NCBI GenBank assembly: GCA_022760475.1
Contig: JALEFZ010000088.1
Span: 310,001-374,000, forward strand
DNA length: 64,000 bases
Direction of reading: 5' to 3'
Source: Bacteroidia bacterium
GTDB lineage: Bacteria; Bacteroidota; Bacteroidia; J057
Positions 1,816 through 24,304 of the stretch are shown here, piece after piece. Position 1 is the stretch's first letter; each line of letters opens with the position of its first letter. The notes under the pieces are model-generated. The model was not told where the DNA came from. It ran no database searches and saw only the letters and a program-made list of their open reading frames with translations. Made by a program: the position numbers and the translations under genes.

Positions 1816-2478
1816 CTACAATTCCACCACAAGTATCTGCTTGGATACCTTTTCCGAGATGTGTAGTTCCTTGCCTCCTTCCAAGCTCAAGGTCATGGAT
1901 TGATCGTAGGAGAGCTTAGACTTGACCTCCAGTTGAGTCCCAATACGTAGTCCACTGGCATCTAGGTATTGCAGAAAATCTGAAGAGTCATCGGTCACCC
2001 GAACAATTCTCAATGGTTCAGACAAAGGGGCTTCCGCAAGCAGTTCCTGAGGCTTTATGTTGAACTTGCCATGCTTATCCGGAATAGGATCCCCATGTGG
2101 ATCAACCGCAGGAAATCCCAAAAACTCATCCAATCTATTGAGTAACTCAGGGGATTGGATATGCTCCAATTGCTCAGCAAGATCGTGTACCTTGTCCCAC
2201 GAAAATGCAAGTTTGTCTACCAAAAAAACCTCCCAAAGCCTATGCCTACGGATCACAGTCAAGGCTGCCAGACGTCCCGTTTCTGTTAGGTTTATACCGT
2301 AATACTTTTTATGGGTGATCAATTCTTTCTTGGCAAGGCGTTTCAACATGTCAGTGACGGAGGAATCCTTCGTTTCCATTTCCTGAGCAATTGCACGAGT
2401 TGCTACTGGATCCGCTCCGTTTGATAGTTTGTAAATAGCCTTTAGGTAATTTTCCTCACCCCTGTGAAGTCCTTCCAT
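1816..2478 (-). CDS. DtxR/MntR-family metal-dependent transcriptional repressor
   Basis: A 220-residue protein with the full DtxR layout: winged helix at residues 1-62 (RGEENYLKAIYKL, then the recognition region around TKDSSVTDMLKRL), a dimerisation/metal-binding domain (RRHRLWEVFL, then AEQLEH at 101-106 giving the conserved ExxEH ligands, and DPHGDPIP), and a C-terminal FeoA/SH3-like domain (about 150-220). In this family Mn2+ or Fe2+ binding drives DNA binding and shuts off metal uptake. The ATG at 2478 is preferred over an in-frame TTG two codons upstream. It is divergent from a metal-binding lipoprotein gene and the shared intergenic region holds a strong palindromic operator, so it probably controls that gene and perhaps itself. 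Which metal it senses cannot be read from sequence. Confidence 0.9.
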   Translation of the reverse strand: MEGLHRGEENYLKAIYKLSNGADPVATRAIAQEMETKDSSVTDMLKRLAKKELITHKKYYGINLTETGRLAALTVIRRHRLWEVFLVDKLAFSWDKVHDLAEQLEHIQSPELLNRLDEFLGFPAVDPHGDPIPDKHGKFNIKPQELLAEAPLSEPLRIVRVTDDSSDFLQYLDASGLRIGTQLEVKSKLSYDQSMTLSLEGGKELHISEKVSKQILVVEL

Positions 2479-2513
2479 ATCCAAATTTAATATCCCAAAT
2501 GGAGCTTTGGAAA

Positions 2514-2539
2514 TTATTTTTAGATTAGGCTAAAAATAA
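2514..2539. promoter_or_regulatory. DtxR-type operator in the divergent metal-uptake region
   Basis: Two perfect 10-bp arms (TTATTTTTAG and CTAAAAATAA) flank the 6-bp spacer ATTAGG. The core TTAGATTAGGCTAA closely resembles the classical DtxR/IdeR box. It sits 35 bp upstream of the regulator start (2478) and 57 bp upstream of the lipoprotein start (2597), so one dimer or dimer pair could control both. A near copy lies upstream of the metal ABC ATPase (24267-24289). Confidence 0.75.
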
Positions 2540-2571
2540 CTGAAAACTTATATTACTCTAAAAAAAAAGAT

Positions 2572-2579
2572 TACCTTTG
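2572..2579 (+). promoter_or_regulatory. Bacteroidota -7 promoter element for metal-binding lipoprotein gene
   Basis: TACCTTTG matches the phylum consensus TAnnTTTG at all fixed positions and ends 17 bp before the start codon. No clear -33 TTTG is seen. The same octamer followed by C occurs at the other metal-uptake locus (24297-24304, minus strand). Confidence 0.5.
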
Positions 2580-2596
2580 CCTAAAAAATTGACAAA

Positions 2597-3508
2597 ATGA
2601 GAACCATCAGCCTGCTTCTTTTGTGTTCAGCTATTTTATTTTCCTGTTCCCAACAACAAGATTCCAAAAGTGAGAAGGTCCTCATTGTAACAACCACCGG
2701 GATGATTCAGGATGCTGTACAGCATATCGTTGGTGAAAACATAGAAGTATTAGGCTTGATGGGCCCCGGAGTAGATCCCCATTTGTATAAAGCTACCCGA
2801 GGAGACCTGGACAAGTTGAACCGAGCCGAAGTCATCATATTTAATGGGCTTCACTTGGAAGGAAAGATGGGGGAGATTCTTGAGAAGATGGGGAGAACCA
2901 AAAAGGTCTTCGCCATAGGTGAAGGAGTTGAGGAATCAAAGCTCATATACCATGGCAGTCAGCAGGATTCCAAAGACCCACATATTTGGTTTGATGTTGC
3001 CCTTTGGGCTTCAGCAGTAAACTACGCTTCCGTTAAATTGATTGAAATCTTCCCCGAAAAAGAAGCAATATTTAAACAGAATACCTCAGCCTATTTGAGT
3101 GAATTACATCTGCTGGATAGCCTTGCCAGAAAAGAACTGTCAAGCATTCCCATGGAGCAAAGGGTCTTAATTACAGCACATGACGCATTTTCATATTTTG
3201 GGAGGGCATACGATGTAGAGGTGAAAGGCTTACAAGGAATTTCTACTGTCGCAGAATTTGGTTTGAAGGATGTAAAGGAATTGGTAGATTTTATAGTTGA
3301 AAAAAAGATAAAAGCAGTTTTTGTAGAGTCTTCTATTCCAACCAAATCCCTGGAAGCAGTGGTCCAGGGCTGCAAAGAAAAAGGCCATGAAATCAAAATT
3401 GGGGGTACGCTTTATTCTGATGCCATGGGTTCTAAGGACAGCAATGCAGGTACATACATTGGCATGGTAGAGGCAAATGTTGCCACCATTGTAAGCTCCC
3501 TGAAATAA
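2597..3508 (+). CDS. Metal ABC transporter substrate-binding lipoprotein (ZnuA/TroA/MntA cluster A-I)
   Basis: A 303-residue periplasmic solute-binding protein. It starts with a lipoprotein signal (MRTISLLLLCSAILFSC, lipobox LFSC). The family motifs are visible: VTTTGMIQDAVQHIVG, GPGVDPHLYKAT with the first metal-ligand His, DPHIWFDVALW with the second, LITAHDAFSYFGRAY with the third, and the late acidic ligand region LYSDAMG. Members of this cluster bind Zn2+ or Mn2+ and hand it to a membrane permease. No permease or ATPase is adjacent; the likely partners are encoded at 22177-24257. It is divergent from a DtxR-type regulator, and a palindromic operator lies just upstream, so repression under metal excess is likely. 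Confidence 0.9.
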   Translation: MRTISLLLLCSAILFSCSQQQDSKSEKVLIVTTTGMIQDAVQHIVGENIEVLGLMGPGVDPHLYKATRGDLDKLNRAEVIIFNGLHLEGKMGEILEKMGRTKKVFAIGEGVEESKLIYHGSQQDSKDPHIWFDVALWASAVNYASVKLIEIFPEKEAIFKQNTSAYLSELHLLDSLARKELSSIPMEQRVLITAHDAFSYFGRAYDVEVKGLQGISTVAEFGLKDVKELVDFIVEKKIKAVFVESSIPTKSLEAVVQGCKEKGHEIKIGGTLYSDAMGSKDSNAGTYIGMVEANVATIVSSLK

Positions 3509-21531: not shown

Positions 21532-22167
21532 TTAATTCTCCTTTATGAAGGTGGTTGGATTCAGGTAGCCCTTGCTTTGGGCGCTATAACCGCCTCCCAA
21601 AGGCAGTTCGATGCTGTCCCTGATTTCCAGGTGCAAGTGGGCTAAGTACTGCCCGCCAGCAGTGCCAATGGTGCCGATTTGCCTTCCTTTCTTTATCCAT
21701 TGACCTTTCTTTACAAGCATGGAATCTGCATGGGCGTAAAGTGAAATGATGAATTTGGGAGAAGACCGAGTCGTATCCATGCAGTGTAATAGCCAGATCA
21801 CATGGCCCCAGCCTCCCTGATAGTCCCTTGCTTCTTTGACATAGCCATTTCCAATGGCATATATTGGGTCTCCAAGGTCGGTATTGCCTCCTGTTACGGC
21901 ATTCCAGTCATCTCCAAGATGGAAATTTTGGCCAAATGGCTGGGCGTTGTAATAGTTTTTGGCATTGGGCTTACCTACTGGGTAATCAAATCCATCAGCC
22001 AGATATGCTGGATGATTAAGGAATAACTTTAATAAAGAATCCTTTAATCCCAGCGCAGATTTTTGGTAGCCGGTTTGTGAAACTACTTGAGCTTTTGAAC
22101 CTTCCTTGTTTTGGCAGGAACAGAGCAAGAGGACAAAAACAATTCCCAGGATAAAATGCTGTCTCAT
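21532..22167 (-). CDS. M23-family metallopeptidase lipoprotein
   Basis: A 211-residue protein with a lipoprotein signal (MRQHFILGIVFVLLLCSC). The LytM/M23 core is present: HLGDDW (HxGxD, first zinc ligands), a GDPIYAIGNGYVKEA strand, YAHADSM, and HLHLEIRD (HxH). Family members cut peptide cross-links in peptidoglycan or act as activators of such enzymes. All catalytic positions appear intact. It starts 9 bp after the stop of the metal-permease gene, so it is probably co-transcribed with the metal transporter, and its own zinc requirement makes that coupling notable. Confidence 0.9.
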   Translation of the reverse strand: MRQHFILGIVFVLLLCSCQNKEGSKAQVVSQTGYQKSALGLKDSLLKLFLNHPAYLADGFDYPVGKPNAKNYYNAQPFGQNFHLGDDWNAVTGGNTDLGDPIYAIGNGYVKEARDYQGGWGHVIWLLHCMDTTRSSPKFIISLYAHADSMLVKKGQWIKKGRQIGTIGTAGGQYLAHLHLEIRDSIELPLGGGYSAQSKGYLNPTTFIKEN

Positions 22168-22176
22168 GTGCTATGT

Positions 22177-23469
22177 TTATTCCTTATACGGAATGGGAGA
22201 GGCATGGGGGTCTTTTTCTGCCCCTTCCAATACTTTTGCCAATTCTGCCTCAATCTCAGGTGTGATGACATGTTCTATGGCCTCCGCGTCCTCATGCACA
22301 TGGTCTGCGGGTAAGTTCATATGGGTGGTCAGGTAAAGCTCCCACATTCTATGAATCCTGATAATCCTTTCACCTTCCTCCTTTCCCTCAGGGCTAAGGG
22401 CAAATTTTTGTTCTTTTCTTATGAGTGATCCTTCAAGCACCAGCTTCTTTGATCCCCTTCTTAGTTGGGGAAGGGGAATGAATCTTCTTTCCTGCATCTG
22501 ATCTACGCTACGAAATGCTTCAAAATTCTGATCAGCTTCACCCAGGTGCCACAATACCTTGAGGATGTTCTCTTTTAGCATCTTTTCTTTGTGGAATCGC
22601 TGGTTCAAATACCTCGCAAGCAAGCCTTTTTTGCGACCTAAAAAAATAGAACCAAGTGCAAATACCGAAAGGATGCTGACAATCCATGGCCCTGTTGGCA
22701 TACGGGGAACGGTGTAGGATATATAGGTTCCAATTAATCCTGCCAGGATGGCAAATACAGTTGACAGTACGAGCATCCATGATAGTGAATTGGTCCAATA
22801 GCGAGCTGCTGCGGCTGGTGCAATCAACAAGGCAGCCATAAGCACTACGCCTACAGCCTGGATTCCAAGTGCAATGGCACTTACGGTCAGTATAGAAAGC
22901 AAAACTTCAAGTCGCCTTACTGGTAATCCCTTTGCGAGGGCATAATCTTTATCGAAAACTACCAGTTTGAAGGGCTGATAGAAGAGAAATACAATGGTGA
23001 TTAGAACAAAACTGAAGATGGCAAAGGTGATCGCATCGTCTCTGACCAAGGCGGCGGCCTTTCCGAAGAGAAACTTATCCAAGCCTGCTTGTGCGGCATT
23101 TCCACTTTGCTGAATGGCTGTTAGCAAAACAATTCCAAGTCCATAAAAAACGGACAATACAAGGCCCAGAGCTGCATCTCCCTTCAACTTGGTCTTGTCA
23201 GAGAGGTAATTGATGGCCAGGAGTCCTAACCAACCGCTGATGGTAGCACCTATGAGAAGTATCATCGGATTTTTGGTCTGGGCTATGATGAAAGCCAGGC
23301 AGACCCCTGGCAAGATGGCGTGAGATACTGCATCTCCGATAAGGGCTTGCTTTCGCAACAAGGTAAAGGTGCCAACAATAGCTGCTGCTGCCGTTATACA
23401 AATGATCCCCCCTACTACCCAGGCTACATTGGGATCCCGCAACATGAAAAAGTCGATGAAATTTTCCAT
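22177..23469 (-). CDS. Metal ABC permease fused to a DtxR-like regulatory domain
   Basis: A 430-residue fusion. Residues 1-285 form a ZnuB/TroC/MntB-type permease with about eight or nine helices (LLRKQALIGDAVSHAILPGV, LFGKAAALVRDDA, GIQAVGVVLMAALLIAPAAAARYW). Residues ~295-430 resemble the DtxR family: a winged-helix-like part (LKENILKVLWHLGEAD ... LEGSLIRKEQKFALSPEGKEEG) and a metal-binding/dimerisation part (RIHRMWELYL with His373, EAIEH at 396-400 giving ExxEH, DPHASPIP). There is no C-terminal SH3 domain. The permease moves Zn2+/Mn2+ with the ATPase encoded just upstream, whose stop codon overlaps this start by one base. The attached domain may sense cytoplasmic metal and gate transport; this is inference. 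Confidence 0.9.
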   Translation of the reverse strand: MENFIDFFMLRDPNVAWVVGGIICITAAAAIVGTFTLLRKQALIGDAVSHAILPGVCLAFIIAQTKNPMILLIGATISGWLGLLAINYLSDKTKLKGDAALGLVLSVFYGLGIVLLTAIQQSGNAAQAGLDKFLFGKAAALVRDDAITFAIFSFVLITIVFLFYQPFKLVVFDKDYALAKGLPVRRLEVLLSILTVSAIALGIQAVGVVLMAALLIAPAAAARYWTNSLSWMLVLSTVFAILAGLIGTYISYTVPRMPTGPWIVSILSVFALGSIFLGRKKGLLARYLNQRFHKEKMLKENILKVLWHLGEADQNFEAFRSVDQMQERRFIPLPQLRRGSKKLVLEGSLIRKEQKFALSPEGKEEGERIIRIHRMWELYLTTHMNLPADHVHEDAEAIEHVITPEIEAELAKVLEGAEKDPHASPIPYKE

Positions 23470-24257
23470 TACTTTTCTCGGATTGGATGTCCCTGTTTTT
23501 CAATGATTTCCACTACCCTGGATAGGATATTCAGTTTGCCACCATAAGTTTTTTGAAGCATGTCTTCTGTGAATACTTCTTCTGTGGGTCCTGAGGCAAT
23601 CAAACGGGTATTCATGAGTAGGAGCCAGTCAAAATAGTCTTTCACAGATTGCAGGTCATGATGAACAACCAAAATGGTTTTGCCATTGGCATTCATTTCT
23701 TTGAGCAAGCTCATGATGGAATTTTCCGTAGCGGCATCTACTCCTGCAAAGGGCTCATCCAGGAGATACATATCTGCTTCCTGGGCAAGTGCCCTGGCTA
23801 TAAAGACACGCTGCTGCTGTCCTCCGGATAACTGAGAAATCTGTCTTTTGACAAAGGGTTCCAATTGAACTTTTTTGATGGCCTCCATGGCAATTTCCTT
23901 GTCAGCCTTGCTTACCCTTCGGAAAAGATTATTTGCCTTGTATCTCCCCATCAATACCGCATCAAAAACATTCACTGGGAAGTCCCAGTCTACAGAATTT
24001 CGTTGTGGAACGTATGCGATTCGCTGGCGGACTTCATCTATTTCCTTTCCATAGACATGGGCATAGCCCGAACTCGGCTTTACAAGGCCCATAAGGGCTT
24101 TGAGCATGGTAGATTTTCCTGATCCATTAGGCCCTACAACACCTATAAGGTGATTTTCCGGAATTGTATAGTCTACATTCCAAAGTGCGGGTTTGCTTTC
24201 GTACACAACTGTCAGGTTGTGTAGTTCGAGTACGGGGTCCGGGACCTGCTTGATCAT
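23469..24257 (-). CDS. Metal ABC transporter ATP-binding protein (ZnuC/TroB/MntA-like)
   Basis: A 262-residue ATPase with Walker A GPNGSGKST, Q-loop VPQRNSVDWDFPV, signature LSGGQQQRVFIARAL, Walker B MYLLDEPFAGVD and H-loop VHHDL. The run RNSVDWDFPVNVFDAVLMGRY is characteristic of Zn/Mn-import ATPases. It is the first gene of a minus-strand operon with the permease fusion and the M23 peptidase. A DtxR-like operator and a TAnnTTTG promoter lie directly upstream. The cognate binding lipoprotein is probably the one at 2597-3508. Confidence 0.93.
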   Translation of the reverse strand: MIKQVPDPVLELHNLTVVYESKPALWNVDYTIPENHLIGVVGPNGSGKSTMLKALMGLVKPSSGYAHVYGKEIDEVRQRIAYVPQRNSVDWDFPVNVFDAVLMGRYKANNLFRRVSKADKEIAMEAIKKVQLEPFVKRQISQLSGGQQQRVFIARALAQEADMYLLDEPFAGVDAATENSIMSLLKEMNANGKTILVVHHDLQSVKDYFDWLLLMNTRLIASGPTEEVFTEDMLQKTYGGKLNILSRVVEIIEKQGHPIREK

Positions 24258-24266
24258 GTTGAACTA

Positions 24267-24289
24267 ATTTTTACCCTTGTCTAAAAAAT
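24267..24289. promoter_or_regulatory. DtxR-type operator upstream of metal ABC ATPase operon
   Basis: Read on the minus strand, the element is ATTTTTTAGACAAGG followed by GTAAAAAT. Over 21 positions it matches the operator at 2514-2539 except for three (TTTTTAGA, two variable bases, AGG, one variable base, TAAAAAT). It sits between the promoter (24297-24304) and the start codon (24257), where a bound repressor would block initiation or early elongation. Confidence 0.7.
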
Positions 24290-24296
24290 AATTACG

Positions 24297-24304
24297 CAAA
24301 GGTA
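24297..24304 (-). promoter_or_regulatory. -7 promoter element for metal ABC operon
   Basis: On the minus strand the bases read TACCTTTG, a full match to TAnnTTTG and identical to the element before the metal-binding lipoprotein gene (2572-2579). It lies 39 bp upstream of the start codon, with the operator in between. Confidence 0.5.

Follow-up and report, generated by a model that had tools for sequence, protein, structure and literature searches.

This work indicated that two palindromic elements, found 20 kb apart in a 64,000-nucleotide stretch of a Bacteroidia bacterium genome (contig JALEFZ010000088.1, hereafter the window), are very probably operators of one DtxR-type repressor, encoded at 1816-2478, which would control a single Tro-type metal-uptake pathway dispersed over four places in the genome. 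Relatives carry the same genes as one operon with the operator before its first gene, which argues for a pathway dispersed here under one regulator.

Two probable operators in the window

Operator 1 consists of two perfect 10-bp arms around a 6-bp spacer (TTATTTTTAG-ATTAGG-CTAAAAATAA), while operator 2, read on the minus strand, is TATTTTTTAGACAAGGGTAAAAATTA (Table 1). The first-pass annotation had reported that both elements agree at 18 of 21 positions, and reading the sequence confirmed this (TTTTTAGATTAGGCTAAAAAT and TTTTTAGACAAGGGTAAAAAT). When at most one mismatch was allowed, the pattern TTTTTAG-N6-CTAAAAA occurred at two places only in the 64 kb, namely both operators, with 0.08 places expected from shuffles and none of 100 shuffles reaching two. 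A matrix built from 35 sites of relatives, and none from the window's genome, ranked the same two elements first, the best score in 40 shuffled windows being 16.7 bits. The matrix sites were picked for their resemblance to the palindrome, so that the matrix is independent of the window's genome and not of the motif, a weakness which is not present in the same way in the comparison of first and internal genes or in the whole-genome count (see below). The third match in the window, a possible weak partial operator over the -7 element of the lipoprotein promoter, scored 10.7 bits, a value reached by about 1% of the shuffles of its intergenic region, and no independent conservation of this site was found. 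This partial site, the DtxR module of the permease and two further operators elsewhere in the genome had not been seen in the first-pass annotation.

Table 1. Features of the two metal-uptake loci (window positions).
Feature	Position	Strand	Basis or remark
DtxR/MntR-type regulator, stand-alone, C-terminal FeoA domain	1816..2478	-	Pfam matches; proposed operator-binding repressor
TAAATTTG, candidate -7 of regulator gene	2482..2489	-	Sequence and spacing survey; inference
Operator 1	2514..2539	.	Between divergent regulator and lipoprotein genes; 28.7 bits
Possible weak partial operator	2565..2590	.	Over -7 of lipoprotein promoter; uncertain
TACCTTTG, -7 of lipoprotein promoter	2572..2579	+	Matches Bacteroidota consensus TAnnTTTG
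TroA-like metal-binding lipoprotein	2597..3508	+	Pfam ZnuA family, 8e-74
ABC-3 permease with C-terminal DtxR module	22177..23469	-	ABC-3, 2.5e-65; Fe_dep_repr_C, 1.1e-21
Fused DtxR module, about residues 297-430	22177..22581	-	Metal/dimerisation part kept, recognition helix drifted
ABC ATPase of metal importer	23469..24257	-	Domain matches
Operator 2	24265..24290	-	Just downstream of -7 of ATPase-permease transcript; 20.7 bits; one mismatch
TACCTTTG, -7 of ATPase-permease promoter	24297..24304	-	Window sequence

Genes of the importer and its regulator

The regulator matched Fe_dep_repr_C (PF02742, 1.9e-31), Fe_dep_repress (PF01325, 9e-16) and FeoA (7e-12), the DtxR pair above cut-offs, and both the winged helix for DNA binding and the metal-binding and dimerisation domain are thus covered. 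Its metal ligands (equivalents of H, E, H, E, E, H) are invariant or nearly so across 42 relatives. It has the E-x2-E-H motif in common with Bacillus subtilis MntR, with Asn here at the position of Asp8, and its best NCBIfam MntR model gave 157 bits for a cut-off of 350; judged by its domains, it is a member of the DtxR/MntR family whose subtype falls below the equivalog cut-off. The closest solved structure to the lipoprotein is TroA of Treponema pallidum (E 2.3e-83), with which its His, His, His and Asp ligand motifs align.

The Tro/Ytg-type importer set is complete, with a cluster A-I binding protein, an ATPase and two ABC-3 permeases, the second permease being encoded on another contig; its genes form one operon with the regulator in most relatives and not in the window's genome. 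Regulator, lipoprotein, ATPase and permease had been rightly assigned from the letters of the window, except that the permease had been taken as plain. Near its C-terminus it matches two DtxR-type models, the metal-binding and dimerisation domain at residues 360-427 (E 1.1e-21) and an MntR model at residues 300-429, which makes it a permease fusion of the YtgCR type. The AlphaFold model of the permease alone had a mean pLDDT of 49 and was not used. A gene for an M23-peptidase lipoprotein (21532-22167, minus strand) begins 9 bp past the stop codon of the permease gene, with which it is probably co-transcribed.

A dispersed pathway probably under one operator

The genome-wide work consisted of pattern and model searches. 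Perfect copies of TTTTAG-N6-CTAAAA number exactly three in the 6.86-Mb genome: operator 1, a site at a gene for a TonB receptor (contig C10) and a site beside the second metal permease (contig C95; ABC-3, E 1.7e-54). Operator 2 is a fourth site, with one mismatch, and one-mismatch sites are also present elsewhere in the genome. A model made from other genomes only ranked the same three places first, with best E-values, which are rough, of 0.011-0.017. The check for random matches at unrelated genes thus found no crowd of them, all three perfect sites lying at genes of the pathway. Only two DtxR modules are encoded in the genome, the free regulator and the one fused to the permease, and only one DtxR protein stands alone. 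The first-pass proposal, in which one regulator controls a Zn/Mn uptake system split between loci, is therefore supported by the genome scan, by the single operon of relatives and by the single free DtxR protein; the split between two loci was borne out and proved wider than proposed, the TonB receptor and the second permease on other contigs carrying the operator as well. On C95, a 163-aa membrane-type protein without a Pfam match (L007:1535-2026, plus strand) begins 15 nt from the operator, divergently from the second permease, and the operator may act on this neighbour, either alone or together with the permease.

In class-level relatives, a single Tro-like operon usually comprises all five genes: regulator, lipoprotein, ATPase, permease-DtxR and second permease. 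An operator score of at least 15 bits was reached upstream of 28 of 42 first genes of these operons and of none of 148 internal genes, where the highest score was 9.7 bits. Some of the remaining first genes have variant sites, start at the edge of a contig or are preceded by a TonB gene; four genomes (G013, G019, G207, G258) have a free regulator and lack a clear operator at their transporter operon, which counts against the explanation. As part of the explanation as a whole, in which our confidence is high, the comparison suggests that this lineage broke up the importer operon, with the same operator retained or acquired by every piece. In same-family relatives (L071:5911-7662; also L070, L072 and L143), one polypeptide of 583-614 aa combines binding protein, a single transmembrane helix and ABC ATPase. 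It adjoins a permease-DtxR fusion as long as about 500 aa, the pair amounting to a metal importer of two proteins with its sensor domain built in; a literature search for a two-protein importer with such a fused binding protein-ATPase found nothing.

An orthologue of the TonB receptor (about 36-58% identity) was found in 16 of the 46 genomes searched, with an operator-type palindrome upstream of it in 15 of the 16, and it stands divergent from or beside a DtxR-type gene in seven. Because orthologues elsewhere carry the operator or a DtxR neighbour, the receptor's link to metal control does not depend on the genome of the window. Six of these orthologues, divergent from a second DtxR-type gene, have GTTAG-N6-CTAAC; that of G068, adjoining a regulator, has TTTAG-N6-CTAAT; and eight without an adjoining regulator have TTTAG-N6-CTAAA or very nearly so. 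In L210, L212, L213, L214 and L217, it is a second, PT-helix DtxR paralogue that is divergent from the receptor, with its own GTTAG-N6-CTAAC operator between the two.

Position of the operators in the promoters

The position of the operators relative to the -7 element had been claimed to differ, operator 1 being upstream and operator 2 downstream, and the coordinates agree with this claim: the -7 element of the lipoprotein promoter begins about 33 nt past operator 1, whereas that of the ATPase-permease promoter precedes operator 2. A candidate -7 element of the regulator gene lies about 41 nt from the centre of operator 1, a spacing which is common in relatives; it ends a few bases before the ATG and would make a leaderless or nearly leaderless mRNA. 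In the spacing survey, operators were upstream of the -7 element in most relatives, the downstream position being that of the ATPase and TonB promoters of the window's genome and otherwise rare. At the TonB receptor, the operator stands directly before the gene and runs into its start codon, with the -7 element TATATTTG ahead of it.

Both window loci had also been noted to have the octamer TACCTTTG, and it is indeed present at each. TAnnTTTG is the general -7 element of Bacteroidota, the phylum to which promoter type and protein families also point for the window's genome. Since TACCTTTG has this general form and turns up nine times across the 64 kb, its presence at both loci adds little, and it was rejected as evidence of co-regulation. 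The ATPase promoter (24265-24304) and the TonB promoter (L001:1485-1530) have a common order of -7 element, TTTGCG, A/T stretch and TTTTTTAGACAAGG, and their likeness extends to the non-palindromic spacer of TTTTTTAGACAAGG. One of them might, by this likeness, have been copied from the other, and it is conceivable that a single promoter was copied to give rise to those of the ATPase, TonB receptor and second permease alike.

The protein likely to read the operator

The presence of two DtxR modules raises the alternative that the permease-fused module, freed by proteolysis or acting at the membrane like YtgCR of Chlamydia, is the repressor that binds these operators. The fusion is real by its domain matches and has a published precedent in Chlamydia, with orthologous fusions reported in 11 phyla (PMC5599777). 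However, among the fusions aligned from 42 relatives, the fused modules have a recognition helix with 26% pairwise identity, against 61% in stand-alone regulators, while their metal domain keeps 62% and its six aligned ligand positions are essentially invariant. Pfam gave no match to the DNA-binding domain in the fused module of the permease, and the DNA-binding half of this module may no longer work. The operator at the transporter operon is missing from all four genomes that have only the fusion (G016, G082, G323, G362) and present in all five with an unfused permease (G322, G325, G364, G138, G015), counts which are small and in which three of the four fusion-only genomes are one family; the operator of G325 is about 400 nt from the regulator gene, and those of G364 and G015 are of a weaker form.

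Moreover, operator variants track the recognition helix of the free regulator. A PT[VA]xxM helix pairs with GTTAG-N6-CTAAC and SV[TS]DM with TTTAG-N6-CTAAA, a pairing that also holds for paralogues within one genome (G206, G279, G113, G144). The PT regulators are one clade (support 0.999) and the second regulator of G015 is a separate GTTAG case, so that about two independent switches back this rule. Three comparisons point the same way: the operator persists in unfused genomes, it is missing from fusion-only ones, and helix variants track operator variants. The DNA binder is thus likely the stand-alone regulator, and we regard binding by the fused module as improbable. As its metal-ligand positions were kept while its recognition helix drifted, the fused module is likelier a metal-sensing brake on transport than a second repressor. 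There is perhaps an even chance that, without DNA binding, it acts as a metal sensor that shuts the transporter at high cytoplasmic metal (trans-inhibition), its free cousin controlling transcription.

The sites could also belong to another regulator family (e.g., Fur, Zur or MerR-type) controlling the same genes, and Fur-family proteins do control similar genes in many bacteria. We consider this very unlikely, since the spacing of the TTAG-N6-CTAA core is that of the DtxR consensus TTAGGTTAGCCTAACCTAA (PMC7762939), and most relatives have the site next to DtxR genes, with whose recognition helix it co-varies. Finally, a chance origin, in which A+T runs flanking a spacer mimic a palindrome, might be suggested by the T/A runs that make up most of the arms and by the one-mismatch sites elsewhere, but it was rejected by the shuffles and the comparison across relatives and is scarcely credible, as the scores exceed all shuffles, the three perfect sites are all at one pathway and the operator is conserved upstream of the same genes across the class.

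Proposed mechanism

From what is read directly, i.e., the sequences, their rarity, the conserved operon and operator of relatives and the co-variation of operator and helix, we infer binding, repression, metal identity and transport as follows. Plentiful intracellular metal, most likely Mn2+ and possibly Zn2+ or Fe2+, would load the dimer of the stand-alone regulator, the clues to the metal being a lipoprotein closest to TroA and an E-x2-E-H site of the MntR kind in the regulator. The loaded dimer would bind TTTAG-N6-CTAAA and block transcription in one of two ways, by sitting just upstream of the promoter core or by lying over the start site. The latter would apply to the ATPase and TonB promoters, where the operator follows the -7 element; in the regulator/lipoprotein region it is upstream, as in most relatives, and at about 49 nt ahead of the -7 element of the lipoprotein gene it stands in an unusual place for simple repression of that gene, a point against the explanation. 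The predicted regulon comprises the regulator's own gene, the TroA-like lipoprotein, the ATPase and permease, the second permease and the outer-membrane TonB receptor.

Relation to known systems and significance

The system resembles troABCDR of Treponema (PMC2628430), with its binding protein, ATPase, two permeases, DtxR-type regulator and dyad operator, and differs from it by genes at four unlinked places, a TonB receptor in the regulon and a DtxR module on one permease. The position of the tro operator relative to the promoter differs between T. pallidum and T. denticola, a precedent for the varying position observed here (PMC2628430). In Chlamydia, YtgABCD is an importer of the same kind, likewise with a C-terminal DtxR module on a permease, which is released as a repressor, YtgCR (PMC5599777); here, by contrast, there is a separate free regulator, the operator is independent of the fusion, and the recognition helix of the fused module lacks conservation. 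PgMntR of Porphyromonas gingivalis, in the same phylum, is also a DtxR-family protein with FeoA domain that controls a metal transporter, but it has two FeoA domains and controls FeoB2 (PMC4805248); a term search of that paper located no operator sequence. The DtxR/IdeR operator TTAGGTTAGCCTAACCTAA is alike in its core spacing (PMC7762939), whereas here T/A runs extend outward and there is no additional outer CCTAA repeat. Literature searches found no published copies of the operator cores; the parts are known and their arrangement is new.

A conserved operator, of which those searches found no published sequence, can thus now be given for a Tro/MntR-type system of Bacteroidota, together with a simple helix-to-operator rule (SV[TS]DM with TTTAG, PT[VA]xxM with GTTAG). 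The importer operon is scattered in this bacterium and yet apparently held together by one switch, which ties an outer-membrane TonB receptor to the metal-uptake regulon. Permease-DtxR fusions are known mainly from Chlamydia, and their purpose becomes testable in bacteria that have both fused and free modules; if the proposed sensing role is true, a repressor domain would have been put to a new use, as a brake on the transporter.
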